DNA of 64,000 nucleotides from an archaeon HR01. Lineage in GTDB: Archaea; Thermoproteota; Nitrososphaeria_A; Caldarchaeales; Caldarchaeaceae. The notes beneath the pieces were generated by a model, which made no database searches, was not told the origin of the DNA, and saw nothing but the letters and a program-made list of their open reading frames with translations. The stretch covers positions 1 to 64,000 of the forward strand of contig BEHD01000001.1 of assembly GCA_002898355.1 (NCBI GenBank), given 5' to 3'. The position numbers were made by a program, and so were the translations under genes. Shown here piece after piece: positions 26,500 through 33,247 of the stretch; position 1 is the first letter of the stretch, and each line of letters opens with the position of its first letter.

Positions 26500-27922
26500 G
26501 CCGATGTATGTTGGCCCTACACTTACTTAAATCTAGCCTCCCCACCGGAGGCTTCTACGTTTATAAGGAACCAGTAAACAATAATATCCGCTGGAGATGA
26601 CGGTTCCCACCCTAGAGATGGGAACCCGAAGCGGAAGAAGCTCACAGCCTTCAATGACCGCGCCCAAGGGTATGGATGCGTCGCCAACTGGACGAGCAGA
26701 CGCCTTAGGCCAGAGTACGCCAGCCGGTGGATAACTCGGCTCGGGGGCCGAGGAAGGGCGTGGCAAGCTGCGATAAGCCCCGGGTAGCCGCAGGCAGGCG
26801 TTGATCCGGGGATGCCCGAATGGGATTTCCTGACGCCGACCACTTCGGTGGTTGGTGTCGCTCCAGGCTTTAAGCCCTGGAGGGGGAACCACCCGAACGG
26901 AAGCATCCAAGTAGGGTGAGGAGAGGAAATCAAAACGAGACTCCCTGAGTAACGGCGAGTGAAAGGGGACCAGGCCAAACCGAACCGCCGTGGGAAACCA
27001 TGGTGGGATGTGGAGTTATGGGTGCAGCCGCCCTCCCCTGTCCGGCGATTCGAAGCGACCTGGAATGGTCCGCCATAGAGGGTGAAAGCCCCGTAGAAGA
27101 AGTCGGACGAGGAGATGGGCTGCCACCCGAGTACCATACCTCGGATATGGTGTGGGAAGTTGGGAGCCACCGGCTTCCAAGCCTAAGTACCTCCCGAGAC
27201 CGATAGCGCAGCAGTACCGTGAGGGAAAGTTGAAAACTACCCCGGGAGGGGGGTGAAAAGCGGTTGAAACCGGCTGGTAATAGACGAGGGCTGCTCCCAA
27301 GGTACTCCATCCGAATGCACCCACGTGGGTGCGTAGGGTGGATTATCCGGGGTAGCCCGCTCCGTCTTGAAACACGGGCCGGGGAGTTCACCGTTGTGGC
27401 GAGCTTAACGGCTCACCAAAGCCGGTAGGCGTAGGGAAACCGAGAGCCCGCAACCGGTGTAAGCCGGTGAGGGGCCGGGTCCGAACAGGGCCTGTAGTCA
27501 CAGCGGTGAGGCTAGAAACCGGGCGATCTAGCCCTGGGTAGGGTGAAGCCGGGCGAAAGCTCGGTGGAGGCCCGAACGCGTCCTGACGTGCAATTCGGTG
27601 CGTTGACCTGGGGCTAGGGGCTAAAAACCAATCTAGCCCGGTGATAGCTAGTTCCTCCCGAAGTGTCTCGCAGGACAGCCTCGGCGGAGGCCGCCTGCGG
27701 GGTAGAGCACCGATGGGGTGGTAAGGGCTCGAAAGGGCCCACCATCCTTTCGAACTCCGAATCCGCAGGCGCCGGAGAAGCCGGGAGTGGGGTGTGCGGG
27801 GTAAGCTCGCACGCCGAGAGGGGAACAACCCAGACCGCGGGTTAAGGCCCCCAAGTGCCCGCTAAGTGACAAACCAAAGGGCGTCTCCCTCCTAAGACAG
27901 CGGGGAGGTGGGAACAGAAGCT

Positions 27923-27962
<40 letters not shown>

Positions 27963-28479
27963 AGGGGGGCCCCGAAAATTGACGGGTCTAAGCGGGCCGC
28001 CGAAACCCGGGTTCACCCAGTCTTGGGCTGGGTGGAGGTAGGGAGGCGTGGCGGTTGGGTGGAAGCAGGGCCGTGAGGTCCTGTGGACCGACCGCCAATG
28101 TAGATCCCGGCGGTAGTAACAGCGAAGCGGGGTGGGAATCCCCGCCGCCGAAGGGGCAAGGGTCTCCCGGCAATGCGTCGTCAGCCGGGAGTAAGCCGGT
28201 CCTAAGGCCGACCTTAACCGGGTAGGCCGAAAGGGAAACCGGTTAAGATTCCGGTGCCTCCGGAGTACGTGCGGCAACGCAAGCCCGGCATCCGACGCTT
28301 CGGGGTAGGCTGAGCAGGGCCGTAGCTCTGTCTAAGCGTATAAGCCTGGGGAGTGGCGTAAAGCCGAGAACCAGGTGAAAGCGCCAACGGCCGCCCGTAT
28401 GGGCGGTTCAGCTGATCCCTGGAGCCCGTGAAAAGGGTGCTGGGAAGGATCTCCGGAGACCGTGCCAAGAACTGACACC

Positions 28480-28514
<35 letters not shown>

Positions 28515-28640
28515 TCACTCCAGGGCGAGGGAACTCGGCAAACTAGCCCCGTAACTTCGGGATAAGGGGTGCCTGAGGCCTTGGCCGGAAGGCTGGGGCC
28601 TTAGGTCGCAGTGACAAGGGGGTCCTGACTGTTTAATAAA

Positions 28641-28861
28641 CGGGCGTGACCACCTAATGATGCGCCGAGGATGAGAAAGACAATCAACCCATATCTCGCT
28701 GGTTTTCTCTAGTTAAACGAGAAATCAGAGCAACTGATACAAACGGTTAACATATCGTTTTGGTAAAATTTTCGGTTACAAATTCACGGAAAACATGACC
28801 TTAATAAACTAATCCAGTGCTTATCCTCGGCAAAGCTGAAGGTGCTTCTGCCCGGTTAAAA
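28641..28861 (+). other. 23S rRNA intron 1, ORF-less, probable BHB type
   Basis: Splits TTTAATAAA|AACATAGG; ends CGGGC/GCCCG pair. Confidence 0.85.
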
Positions 28862-28984
28862 AACATAGGTAGCCGCAAGGCCGAAAGGCTGTGAACGGCT
28901 ATTGAATCCTGGCCAGTGCGGGTACTCGAAAGCCGGGTTCAACCGGCATAAGGGCCCGTAAACGCCGGGAGTAACTCTGACTCT

Positions 28985-30116
28985 CGAGCTAAAGGGAGTC
29001 GTTAAACCCGGCTGTATGCGGGGAATTCCAGAGCCCCCAACTACCTTAAAAGGTAACAATGTTGGGGGTTATGAGGAAGACCCGCAGGAAACCCCTGCCA
29101 AAGTGGTAGCCATGCTCACCGATTTCTCCGACATAATCGACCCAGAGGAACTTCCTAACAGGCTTAGCCAGCTCAAGTGGCACATAACAGGGTTCGTCGA
29201 CGGAGACGGAAGCTTCCCGATAATCCTTTCACCCGACGGTGGAAAAAAATTCGGCTGGCTAATCCAGCCAAGGTTTGAGGTGGAGCTTCGAAGCAGCACA
29301 GACTCCGAGGTCATGCTCAAGGTGATCTGCAGAGCCATGCAGATTAGGCCAAAGATATTCGCCGGCGAAAACTACGTCAAACTCATCGTTACCAACAGGA
29401 GGATGCTGCTGGAGAAGGTGGTTCCCTTCTTCGAAAAATACAGGCCAGCGGTCAAGTGGCTGGACTTCAAAATAATGAGCGAGGTTGCGCAAGACCTTCA
29501 GCAGAAGAGACATCTAGAATACGATGGATTCAAGGAGATCATCAGAAAAATATACTCCATCCCACGGGACGGAGAGACAAGAAGGAAGTGGAGGTTCGAG
29601 GACATAATCAAGGACGAGGAGCCGCCGCCTCCCCGTGAAGACACTAGGACAAGACTGCCCAGCGGACTTGTACCGCTCAAACACTACGTCGCAGGCTTCA
29701 TAGACGCCGAAGGCTCACTCGGATTCGACGTAAACAGGGAGACAAGGTCGATAACACCGTATCTCACGATAACCAGCTCCGAGACAGATGTTCTGAGGAA
29801 AATTAGATGGCTTCTAGGCTGTGGAGAAATCAGCAGAGGAAGGCTTCAGATCTACGGCGTCAACAACATCGTTAACAGGGTTGCACCGTTCCTCGACAGA
29901 CAGAAGCTAATAGCAAAAAGGACAACCTACAAGATGTTTAAGCAGATACTTGAGACGGTAGTCAGAGGCGATCACAAGAGAAACTTCCAAGAAACCGTTG
30001 AACTCGTCAATATGTTGAACAAAACTGCAGGGGGATCCCCAGAGACCATACGCCGGGCGCCCTCAGCAAATGGAGGGGGCGAAGATATGGTCCAGCACCC
30101 GTAAAAAAGGGTGTTG
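28985..30116 (+). other. 23S rRNA intron 2: group I intron
   Basis: Splits GACTCT|CTTAAGGTAGCC; P1 GACTCT/GGGAGTC with U.G at splice site; P3, P4, P5, P6, P7, P8, P9 pairings found; terminal G at 30116. Confidence 0.9.
29112..30104 (+). CDS. LAGLIDADG homing endonuclease (two-motif), in intron 2
   Basis: WHITGFVDGDGSFPI and HYVAGFIDAEGSLGF; ORF from 29016, ATG at 29112 lies after the P6 5' strand. Confidence 0.93.
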   Translation: MLTDFSDIIDPEELPNRLSQLKWHITGFVDGDGSFPIILSPDGGKKFGWLIQPRFEVELRSSTDSEVMLKVICRAMQIRPKIFAGENYVKLIVTNRRMLLEKVVPFFEKYRPAVKWLDFKIMSEVAQDLQQKRHLEYDGFKEIIRKIYSIPRDGETRRKWRFEDIIKDEEPPPPREDTRTRLPSGLVPLKHYVAGFIDAEGSLGFDVNRETRSITPYLTITSSETDVLRKIRWLLGCGEISRGRLQIYGVNNIVNRVAPFLDRQKLIAKRTTYKMFKQILETVVRGDHKRNFQETVELVNMLNKTAGGSPETIRRAPSANGGGEDMVQHP

Positions 30117-30147
30117 CTTAAGGTAGCCAAATGCCTTGTCGGGTAAG

Positions 30148-30811
30148 GGCTACGGTGACCGTTGGAGGGGATGCTGGAGTGGAAAGCTTATCTTTCCTTG
30201 GTAAATAGTGGGTAGGTTAGGTGTTTGAAGACATGGATGAAGACTACGCGTACCTGCTCGGAGCCATTCGTGATGCATGTGTCTACTTGCCTGAGTATGA
30301 GCTAAAGTTTGTCCAGAGAGAAGTCAGGTGGCTCACCGACGTTATTAAACCCAAGATGCAACGAGTGTTTGGTCTTGATAAACTCAAAGTGAGGATGAGA
30401 AGGGACAGGCTTTTTGAACTCAAAGCAAACTCGAAGAAGATGGTTGAGAGATTGATTCGGGAGGCAAACGTTGACCGAAGACCCATGGATACGCCGTATA
30501 TAGTAAAGCAGATGCAGTTAGACATACAATTACACTATGTTGCTGGCTTCTATGACGCTGAAGGCGATAAGAGAGGAGATAGAATAAGATTTTGGCAGTC
30601 TTGGCATCAAGAGGGTAACTGTCCACCGCTGGAGTTTATAGCCTCAGTCTTAGCGGATGCAGGTATTGAAACACGTCTTTATAGGCTTGGCAGAAGAAAA
30701 GGCAAATTGTTTGAGTTTTGTCTAGAAATTTCTCAAATTTATCAGAAAAAAATGTTTTATTTGTTGATCCCACTCCAGCATCCGAGCCTGGTCCTCCGAG
30801 CCCCCCGAGAG
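30148..30811 (+). other. 23S rRNA intron 3, BHB type
   Basis: Splits GGGTAAG|TTCCGACG; GATGCTGGAGTGG pairs with CCACTCCAGCATC. Confidence 0.88.
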
Positions 30812-30826
30812 TTCCGACGTGCATGA
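30221..30826 (+). CDS. LAGLIDADG homing endonuclease, in intron 3
   Basis: DYAYLLGAIRDACVYLP and LHYVAGFYDAEGDKRGDR; stop codon lies inside the downstream exon. Confidence 0.85.
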   Translation: MFEDMDEDYAYLLGAIRDACVYLPEYELKFVQREVRWLTDVIKPKMQRVFGLDKLKVRMRRDRLFELKANSKKMVERLIREANVDRRPMDTPYIVKQMQLDIQLHYVAGFYDAEGDKRGDRIRFWQSWHQEGNCPPLEFIASVLADAGIETRLYRLGRRKGKLFEFCLEISQIYQKKMFYLLIPLQHPSLVLRAPREFRRA

Positions 30827-31306
30827 ATGGATCAACGAGGGCCCCGCTGTCCCCGCCTGGAGCCCCGTGAACCCACGTAACGTGGGCGAACAGTCCACGA
30901 CCTCCCAACGGGGAAAGAAGACCCTGTGGAGCTTTACTGCAGCCTGTCGCTGGGATGTGGACGGATGTGCAGAGCGTAGCCGGGAGCCGTCGATCCCCGC
31001 CTCTCCGGGGGTGGGGGGAGGCGCCCCTGTAACACCGGCCACGTCTGTTTGCATCTCTCACCGGCGCGGAAGCGCTGGAACAACGGCAGGTGGGCAGTTT
31101 GGCTGGGGCGGCACCCCCTTGAAAAGATATCGAGGGGGCCCAAAGGTCGGCTTAGGCGGGACAGAAACCCGCCGTGAAGTGCAAGGGCAAAAGCCGGCTT
31201 GACAGGACCCTTGAAAGCAAGGGGTCCTGGGGGGAAACCCAGGCCTAGCGATCCATCGGCTCCCACCGGTGGGGGCCGGTGGTGACAGAAAAGTTACCCC
31301 AGGGAT

Positions 31307-31621
31307 ATTGCGCGCAGCAACCATAAAAGCCGCCGATACAGGCTCCTGCAGGGTGTCTGAAGACCTATACTACTTAAGCCTCGATAAACTCGCTTTATTG
31401 GAGAACGGATTTGACAGAATGATGTCAAATTACTCGAAGCTGCCCGCAGAGTATTAGAAAACCATGGCTTGGAATGTGGGAAAATAACACGTTCAAGAGA
31501 TGTGTATGCCCTACCGATTTATGGTAGGGGTAGAATGGCCCAATTTATGAAACACATAGGCTTCAGACACCCTGAAAAAAGGAGAATGATGAGGCGGAAG
31601 GTTGTCCTGGCGCAACCCTAG
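31307..31621 (+). other. 23S rRNA intron 4, BHB type
   Basis: Splits CCCCAGGGAT|AACAGGCTCG; TTGCGC/GCGCAA closing helix. Confidence 0.85.
31310..31620 (+). pseudogene. Decayed LAGLIDADG endonuclease remnant in intron 4
   Basis: Frame 1 ...SEDLYYLSLDKLALLENGFDRMMSNYSKLPAEY stop; other frame VKLLEAARRVLENHGLECGKITRSRDVYALPIYGRGRMAQFMKHIGFRHPEKRRMMRRKVVLAQP. Confidence 0.65.
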
Positions 31622-31651
31622 AACAGGCTCGTCGCGGGCGAGAGTCCCCAT

Positions 31652-32500
31652 CCCGCGCCCGTTGGGGGAGCGGATAAATAATCCAGAGGATCACAATCGA
31701 TGAGTTGAATTCGGAGACGATTGACGTCTTAGAATCCTTGTCACCCACCTACATCCGCACATATGTTAGATCGGTTGACGAGGACCTGATAATAGTTGAG
31801 GGCAAAAGTGGTGGCAAAAAATTTAGAGACACTCTGCCGCGTTACATACGCTTTGACCAAGAATGCTGCTATAACATCGGACTATGGTTAGGCGATAGAT
31901 GGGGAGGAAAATCAAGGGTTGGCATCAAAAACAAAGACGTTGAACTGATAGCCGCTTTTTACTGGTTCCTGCGAAAAAAGATGAAACAGGATAGTCCTAG
32001 GTTCTTGTCGTAAAAAAGAACAGCAACGTAAGCATTGAGCCGACAACCAACATAAACCTTCCAACCACCCCGGTTGAGGTGATAGACAACACAATATTTG
32101 GGCCGTGGATCTACGCTGTATTTGTTCAGAATGGTGCATTGAGAACAAAAGTCATGAACCAAATCGAGAACACACTACTGCTAAGATTTGAGTCCTCTGG
32201 AGAAGAGGTTGCAGCATCATTTATGGCAGGTGTGCTCGATGCAGAAGGCGGATTCGAGCACAATAAAAAGAGAGTAGCTATCTCTGTCTCGCTGAGTAAA
32301 AAATCAGGTACCTTTGAGTTTGAACTCTACTCCAATTTATTGAGAAAATTGGGCGTAAAATTTTTCACAGTTAAAGACGATGAATCAATTGTTTTAAGAA
32401 TCCCGCATGGTCAAATCCCTGTTTTATGTGACAAAGTTGCATCAATAATGCGCTGCAGCCGTAAGGTATCGCTCCTCCAACACTGGGCGGGAGGATAAAT
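31652..32500 (+). other. 23S rRNA intron 5, BHB type
   Basis: Splits AGTCCCCAT|CGACCCCGCGG; CCCGCGCCC/GGGCGGG closing helix. Confidence 0.85.
31705..32498 (+). pseudogene. LAGLIDADG homing endonuclease split by a frameshift, in intron 5
   Basis: ORF 31705-32013 (YNIGLWLGDRWGGKSRVGIKN) and ORF 32079-32498 (ASFMAGVLDAEGGFEHN); second frame continues upstream as VLVVKKNSNVSIEPTTNINLPTTPVEVI. Confidence 0.75.
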
Positions 32501-32610: not shown

Positions 32611-33247
32611 CGCCTCGTCTGGGGGAGTTCTTATATTTACTGTTGTGTTATCTGGGGTATGTCCGGTTGGGAGAGGCTGCAGGTTATCTATGGCTCTTTG
32701 CTGGGTGATGCATGGTTGGATAAGCCAGCCGATGGCAATGCAAGGCTTCAAGTTAGACACAGTATAAAACAGCGTGGTTATGTTGAGTTCAAAAACCGTG
32801 TGTTAAAGCCGTTAAGCCTCGACCTGATATTCTATGAGTATCTTGATAGAAGAACAGGCAAAACCTATAGACAGGTAGGGTTCAATACACGTAGACATCC
32901 TCTGTTCACGTATTTGCGGCTGTTGTTTTATAACAACGGCGTGAAAACATTCCCTGTAGAGCTGTTTGACGATATGGATGAGATTGCCCTGGCAATCTTC
33001 ATAGGCGATGATGGTACGTTTGATAAAAACGCAGGAACGGTCAAGATATCAGTGGATAGTTACAGGCTTAGAGAAAGAGAATTGATACGGGCATGGCTCG
33101 AGAGAAAATTCAGCCTAAAAACAACATTACAGAAGGATAGAGTATACGTCCTCAAAAGCAGCCTCCCAACCCTAGTTAAGATAGTGTCACAGTACATGCC
33201 AGAAAGCATCCATTATAAACTATCTCCCCCTTGACAGGCGGAACAAA
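32611..33247 (+). other. 23S rRNA intron 6, BHB type
   Basis: Splits GGGTTTAGA|CCGTCGTGAGACAG; CGCCT/AGGCG closing helix. Confidence 0.88.
32659..33234 (+). CDS. LAGLIDADG homing endonuclease, in intron 6
   Basis: LQVIYGSLLGDAWLDKP and ALAIFIGDDGTFDKN. Confidence 0.88.
   Translation: MSGWERLQVIYGSLLGDAWLDKPADGNARLQVRHSIKQRGYVEFKNRVLKPLSLDLIFYEYLDRRTGKTYRQVGFNTRRHPLFTYLRLLFYNNGVKTFPVELFDDMDEIALAIFIGDDGTFDKNAGTVKISVDSYRLRERELIRAWLERKFSLKTTLQKDRVYVLKSSLPTLVKIVSQYMPESIHYKLSPP

Follow-up and report, generated by a model that had tools for sequence, protein, structure and literature searches.

A 23S rRNA micro-exon between a group I intron and a BHB intron in a Caldarchaeales/Aigarchaeota genome

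Group I introns have been described in archaea, and their co-existence with BHB introns in a single rRNA gene is published (Figure 1 of Nawrocki, Jones and Eddy 2018, PMC6125680). One of them, IB4.9, is located at LSU/1923 in Candidatus Caldiarchaeum subterraneum (BA000048.1). Very short rRNA exons between neighboring introns are also known. In KP308720, group I introns at 1923 and 1931 (21763 and 21772; Table 1, PMC6125680) leave an exon of 8 nt, and in the 16S rRNA of Pyrobaculum there are BHB introns 8 nt apart (1205/1213) and 7 nt apart (901/908), with the homing enzyme of one close intron co-converting the other (PMC4496867). The locus described here, in genome G000, shares the co-existence of both intron kinds with the first set of genes, and a tiny rRNA exon between two introns with KP308720 and Pyrobaculum. 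The pairs in the latter two each depend on one splicing mechanism, while the G000 pair combines a ribozyme with a protein pathway. A group I/BHB spacing of 29 nt is not described in the portion of the PMC6125680 text that was covered, and the text of open-access papers yielded no report of a group I and a BHB intron so near to each other. Each of the two introns is of a known kind – it is their side-by-side placement that is rare, and the novelty is modest.

The window, meaning the whole stretch of DNA that was analyzed, is 64,000 nucleotides long; coordinates below are positions in it unless a contig is named, and all of its features discussed here are on the + strand. The Rfam LSU_rRNA_archaea model spans 26703–31399 (2027 bits). 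Within this span, CTTAAGGTAGCCAAATGCCTTGTCGGGTAAG at 30117–30147 is the stretch of 23S rRNA between the group I intron and the BHB intron. It belongs to the conserved rRNA that separates H69 from H71 and is identical across all relatives; its core is single-copy in the G000 genome, and the viral contigs searched had no copy. The rRNA here is invariant, and among relatives each flank is found intact or interrupted in the way that two separate insertions predict, so that the micro-exon is, on this comparison, not a matter of chance. The preferred reading, with a probability of roughly 0.85, is that two unrelated mobile rRNA introns occupy neighboring, separately targeted hot spots of the 23S gene (1923 and 1952), with 29 nt left between them as an exon. 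The anatomy, the boundaries and the independent presence of each intron in relatives are established at the level of sequence comparison; splicing and homing are treated below as predictions.

The left intron, as had been predicted, is a group I intron (28985–30116, 1132 nt). Its core is interrupted by an ORF, and it was missed in an Rfam search at gathering cut-offs, matching RF00028 in a permissive search at 25.4 bits (E 4.6e-4; gathering score 50). Its features include the P3/P7 pseudoknot, P4–P6, P8, P9, the terminal omega G (30116) and the P1 guide. With G000 as reference, pairing was assessed in a set of 21 distinct introns at site 1923 from relatives and a GTDB genome scan. The 5’ exon ends in GACTCT (28979–28984, the 3’ strand of H69); these 6 nt form the 5’ strand of P1 and pair with 28995–29000, with a U.G pair at the splice site after 28984. 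P1 was paired in 126/126 cells and the U.G was present in all 21 introns; in five sequences P1 was compensated across the exon-intron border, with exon GACCCT facing guide GGGGTC. P3 (126/126, with 18 two-sided changes), P4 (126/126), P6 (42/42) and P7 (147/147) were fully paired, and P8 (100/105) and P9 (95/101, with 33 two-sided changes) nearly so. The distal part of P5 aligned poorly (53/133 paired), and no claim is made for it. The guide AAG at 28992–28994 is the P10 partner of micro-exon bases 1–3 (CUU), with 50/57 pairs in the homologues.

The same boundaries applied to the intron of genome G003 give 1314432–1313300, which are the published IB4.9 coordinates to the base. By this agreement G003 would be Candidatus Caldiarchaeum subterraneum, and the 5’ edge of the micro-exon stands where it had been placed. 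The G000 intron is at the same site as IB4.9 and is 95.9% identical to it along its entire length, ORF included, which suggests subtype IB4. The left boundary, class and site were thus already known for an intron this similar. The genomes differ at site 1952, which is empty in the IB4.9 genome and carries the BHB intron, 29 nt downstream, in G000.

The P6 loop of the group I intron encodes a 330-aa protein (29112–30104) in which two stretches match the LAGLIDADG_1 domain (PF00961, E 6.7e-22); the 3’ end of the ORF overlaps P7, P3 and P8. Its best matches are I-OnuI-class proteins, with I-CeuI a weak match (5e-7). An I-CeuI-style single-motif homodimer was considered for this enzyme and rejected, as two motifs occur within the 330 aa. 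The original prediction had called the 5’ side of the exon an I-CeuI-type region. This is right for the site, since LSU/1923 is also the site of the I-CeuI-encoding intron, but not for the enzyme. Among archaeal introns at LSU/1923 (L002-L052) there is one ribozyme family with three kinds of LAGLIDADG gene: a single-motif protein of about 165–200 aa in the majority, the two-domain 330-aa protein, which G000 and G003 have, and another, unlike it, of about 220 aa with two motifs, which is found in L007, L008, L010 and L013 (Calditenuaceae where named).

The right intron, at LSU/1952, extends from 30146 to 30809 (664 nt). Its junctions read GGGTA-AG-GGCTACGG at the 5’ end and CCCCCCGAG-AG-TTCCG at the 3’ end. 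Because AG is repeated at both, the cut is ambiguous by two bases, and the sequence alone would allow an exon of 29, 30 or 31 nt, with 30146–30147 exonic only if the AG is assigned to the 5’ side. BHB geometry narrows this. In G000 a 4-bp helix (CGGG:CCCG) is flanked by two 3-nt bulges (UA/A and AG/A) that are cut after the second base, and the ligated product is the intronless rRNA. Under the rule of two 3-nt bulges flanking a 4-bp helix the cuts fall after GGGUA and CCCGAG, giving a most likely exon length of 29 nt (30117–30145; 23S 1924–1952 in E. coli numbering) rather than 31. The original prediction thus had the exon and its place correct, but its length of 31 nt and its 3’ edge at 30147 are not borne out: the cut is put after 30145, and the same solution fits four introns at site 1952 (in G000, G004, G025 and G245). 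The numbering 1923/1952 was obtained from the published IB4.9 site and the count of 29, the 23S of the E. coli strain being 6 nt shorter than the standard. The 5’ strand of the middle helix and the UA of the 5’ bulge are at 30140–30145, of which 30140–30142 are also part of H71 (GUCGG) in the mature rRNA. The 3’ exon begins at 30810–30826 with AGTTCCGACGTGCATGA, the 3’ strand of H71, which is joined directly to the micro-exon in intronless relatives.

That this is a BHB intron, as proposed, is supported by the bulges, the middle helix and an intron helix that covaries among the four introns: GGGCU:AGCCC in G000 becomes GAGC:GCUC in G025 and GGCGG:CCGCC in G245. The sequence of the G245 intron spans the two ends of a contig assumed to be circular, and its family is guessed to be Desulfurococcaceae-like. 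The motif in G000 is relaxed, because on the exon side UUGU and GUUC, judged by inspection, can form nothing but G.U pairs; this falls short of the strict hBHBh’ form, which has at least two Watson-Crick pairs. Heteromeric splicing endonucleases of TACK archaea accept relaxed or broader BHB motifs (PMC7714728). G000 encodes two splicing-endonuclease paralogues and RtcB, the probable ligase of the BHB exons. The RtcB gene (C27:5435–7834; L059, L061) has an intein immediately before a conserved Cys (GYDIN/CLPSGTPIL ... NFIANGFVVSN/CGVRL), and production of RtcB would therefore itself depend on protein splicing. There is a second, short RtcB-like ORF on contig C6 of G000.

The BHB intron encodes a 201-aa I-DmoI-like LAGLIDADG protein (30221–30826). 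The best match to it among solved structures is I-DmoI (E 0.002). The ORF of the G245 intron at the same site matches I-DmoI at E 4.7e-33, and the two ORFs match each other pairwise at E 7e-17 (29% identity over 129 aa). The G000 protein is thus a distant relative of I-DmoI, with the link clear through G245. The two introns share the insertion phosphate, the bulges and the middle helix, and their LAGLIDADG proteins are related; they differ in that the proteins are only 29% identical and no group I neighbor was detected in G245. With an I-DmoI homologue encoded at the same phosphate, the claim that the 3’ side of the exon is the region of an I-DmoI-type site holds. The I-CeuI target reaches into the micro-exon for about 14 bp and that of I-DmoI for about 13 bp; at these lengths the two half-sites would tile the 29 bp without overlap. 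In both G000 and G004 the ORF reads past the 3’ splice site (30809–30826; L003) to a TGA inside the 23S exon, so the frame as listed requires unspliced RNA.

The two introns have different distributions. G000 belongs to the same order as G003, and G003 and G004 to the same family. G003 has the group I intron and an empty site 1952; in G004 and G025 the BHB intron is present and site 1923 is empty; G000 is the sole genome with both among those found carrying either. Most relatives have nothing inserted at site 1952, and it was empty at every other locus read with group I at 1923, 21 stretches from genome contigs among them. Among 398 Thermoproteota genomes, a pattern search that can miss some recorded 4 with site 1952 occupied, and the group I intron at 1923 is in about 18 genomes among the matches listed. 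Roughly 0.3 co-occurrences would be expected by chance; one was seen.

The introns also differ in apparent history. Between G000 and G003 the group I ORF has a pS of 0.107 (dN/dS 0.20), against 0.67 for a TrpB-like gene and 0.65 for a second neighboring gene. The contrast between an intron pS of 0.11 and host values of 0.65–0.67 indicates recent movement between lineages, and it points to horizontal transfer with either the G003 lineage or G000 as donor. Between G000 and G004 the BHB ORF has a pS of 0.70 (dN/dS 0.09), alongside 0.69 for TrpB; being as diverged as host genes, the BHB intron is older or vertically inherited. An aldehyde dehydrogenase was dropped as a yardstick of divergence, as it is perhaps not orthologous (67%), and the TrpB-like and second neighboring genes were used. 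Both intron ORFs are under selection, with dN/dS of 0.20 and 0.09. If the group I intron homed between alleles that differed at 1952, its conversion tract would have ended within 29 bp on that side.

Other insertions are found nearby. At site 1927, between CTCTCTTA and AGG, a BHB-like intron follows the group I site by as little as 4 nt; it is carried by G005, G027, G034, G035, G037 and G038 of the same archaeal order (L005, L021, L027, L028, L030, L031). A search of the order for a group I 1923 intron paired with a BHB 1927 intron, with a 4-nt exon between them, found none. The G000 23S gene itself has four more insertions, for a total of six, with approximate boundaries at 28637–28847, 31312–31622, 31668–32496 and 32622–33245. 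Near 31.3–31.6 kb the match is to G003, at about 94% over the pieces that align; near 31.7–32.5 kb it is to G004, at 86%. The remaining two match neither.

The removal of each intron can be outlined from these structures. The group I ribozyme would remove itself, with P1 pairing the 3’ strand of H69 to the guide, P10 using exon bases 1–3, and the omega G directly preceding the exon. The tRNA-splicing endonuclease would cut the relaxed BHB, and a ligase such as RtcB would join the ends. H69 is blocked by the group I intron and H71 by the BHB intron, so each splicing event frees one mature helix – H69 would re-form after the first removal and H71 after the second. Each reaction would work at its own end of the exon, and independence of the two is expected. 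Each intron is likely to have spread through its own LAGLIDADG homing endonuclease.

The alternative that survives best, although it is still unlikely, is that the two pathways are coupled, competing for the short exon or running in a fixed order, as the original prediction had suggested. The group I intron might have to leave first, for example, either because a longer 5’ exon is required by the endonuclease or because the folded ribozyme hides the BHB. The exon is just 29 nt long and carries or adjoins strands of H69 and H71, both of which splicing remodels. However, P10 needs exon bases 1–3 and the BHB helix and bulge need bases 24–29, about 20 nt apart and with no overlap. Folding was modeled on a precursor with the ORFs removed, as pair probabilities without the P3/P7 pseudoknot, tertiary structure, protein or kinetics. 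With both introns, P1 had a probability of 1.00 at 37 C and 0.95 at 70 C, P9 of 1.00 and 0.98, and the BHB middle helix of 0.81 and 0.94. With a single intron the values for P1 (1.00 and 0.95) and P9 (1.00 and 0.98) were the same, and the BHB middle helix stood at 0.97 and 0.91. The presence of the ribozyme therefore lowers the BHB helix slightly at 37 C (0.97 to 0.81), which would favor coupling, but there is no loss at 70 C (0.91 to 0.94). Each intron is present and conserved where the other is absent, and tighter spacings are tolerated elsewhere, at 8 nt in the KP308720 group I pair and 7–8 nt in the 16S BHB pairs. Competition or a fixed order is thus not supported – the bases needed are separate, P1, P9 and the BHB helix fold together, and each intron occurs alone in relatives – and there may still be a kinetic preference between the two reactions. 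The stronger form, in which the 29-nt exon forces an ordered hand-off from ribozyme to tRNA-splicing endonuclease, maturation of H69–H71 is order-dependent, and the introns move together by co-conversion, is similarly improbable.

Less probable, and indeed very unlikely, is that the right element is a degenerate group I intron or an unspliced insertion, outside the BHB pathway altogether. The weak exon-side helix would fit this, and in CPR bacteria site 1952 holds LAGLIDADG_1-bearing insertions (PMC11270868), so other kinds of intron may use the site. Against it are the 3-nt bulges, the 4-bp helix and the covarying helix in four introns, one of which encodes an I-DmoI homologue; Rfam at gathering cut-offs also gave no group I match in the window, though the left intron was missed in that search too. 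Least probable of all is an assembly artefact, in which separate group I-bearing and BHB-bearing alleles of a population were merged across the 29 nt they share. In its favor, all relatives have the same exon, G003 and G004 of one family hold one intron each, and the G000 assembly is in 32 contigs; against it, the exon core is single-copy, the G000 BHB intron shares 73% identity with its G004 counterpart and is not a copy of it, the locus sits in a 180-kb contig, and usual assembly word lengths are greater than 29.

The G000 exon is a natural test piece for whether RNA-catalyzed and protein-catalyzed splicing can act on the same few rRNA bases. If the introns arrived one by one, so short an exon limits the spread of gene conversion on that side. 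Because the two introns are adjacent in one gene, their mobility can also be compared internally: the group I intron appears to have moved recently between lineages, and the BHB intron has diverged like the host genes.
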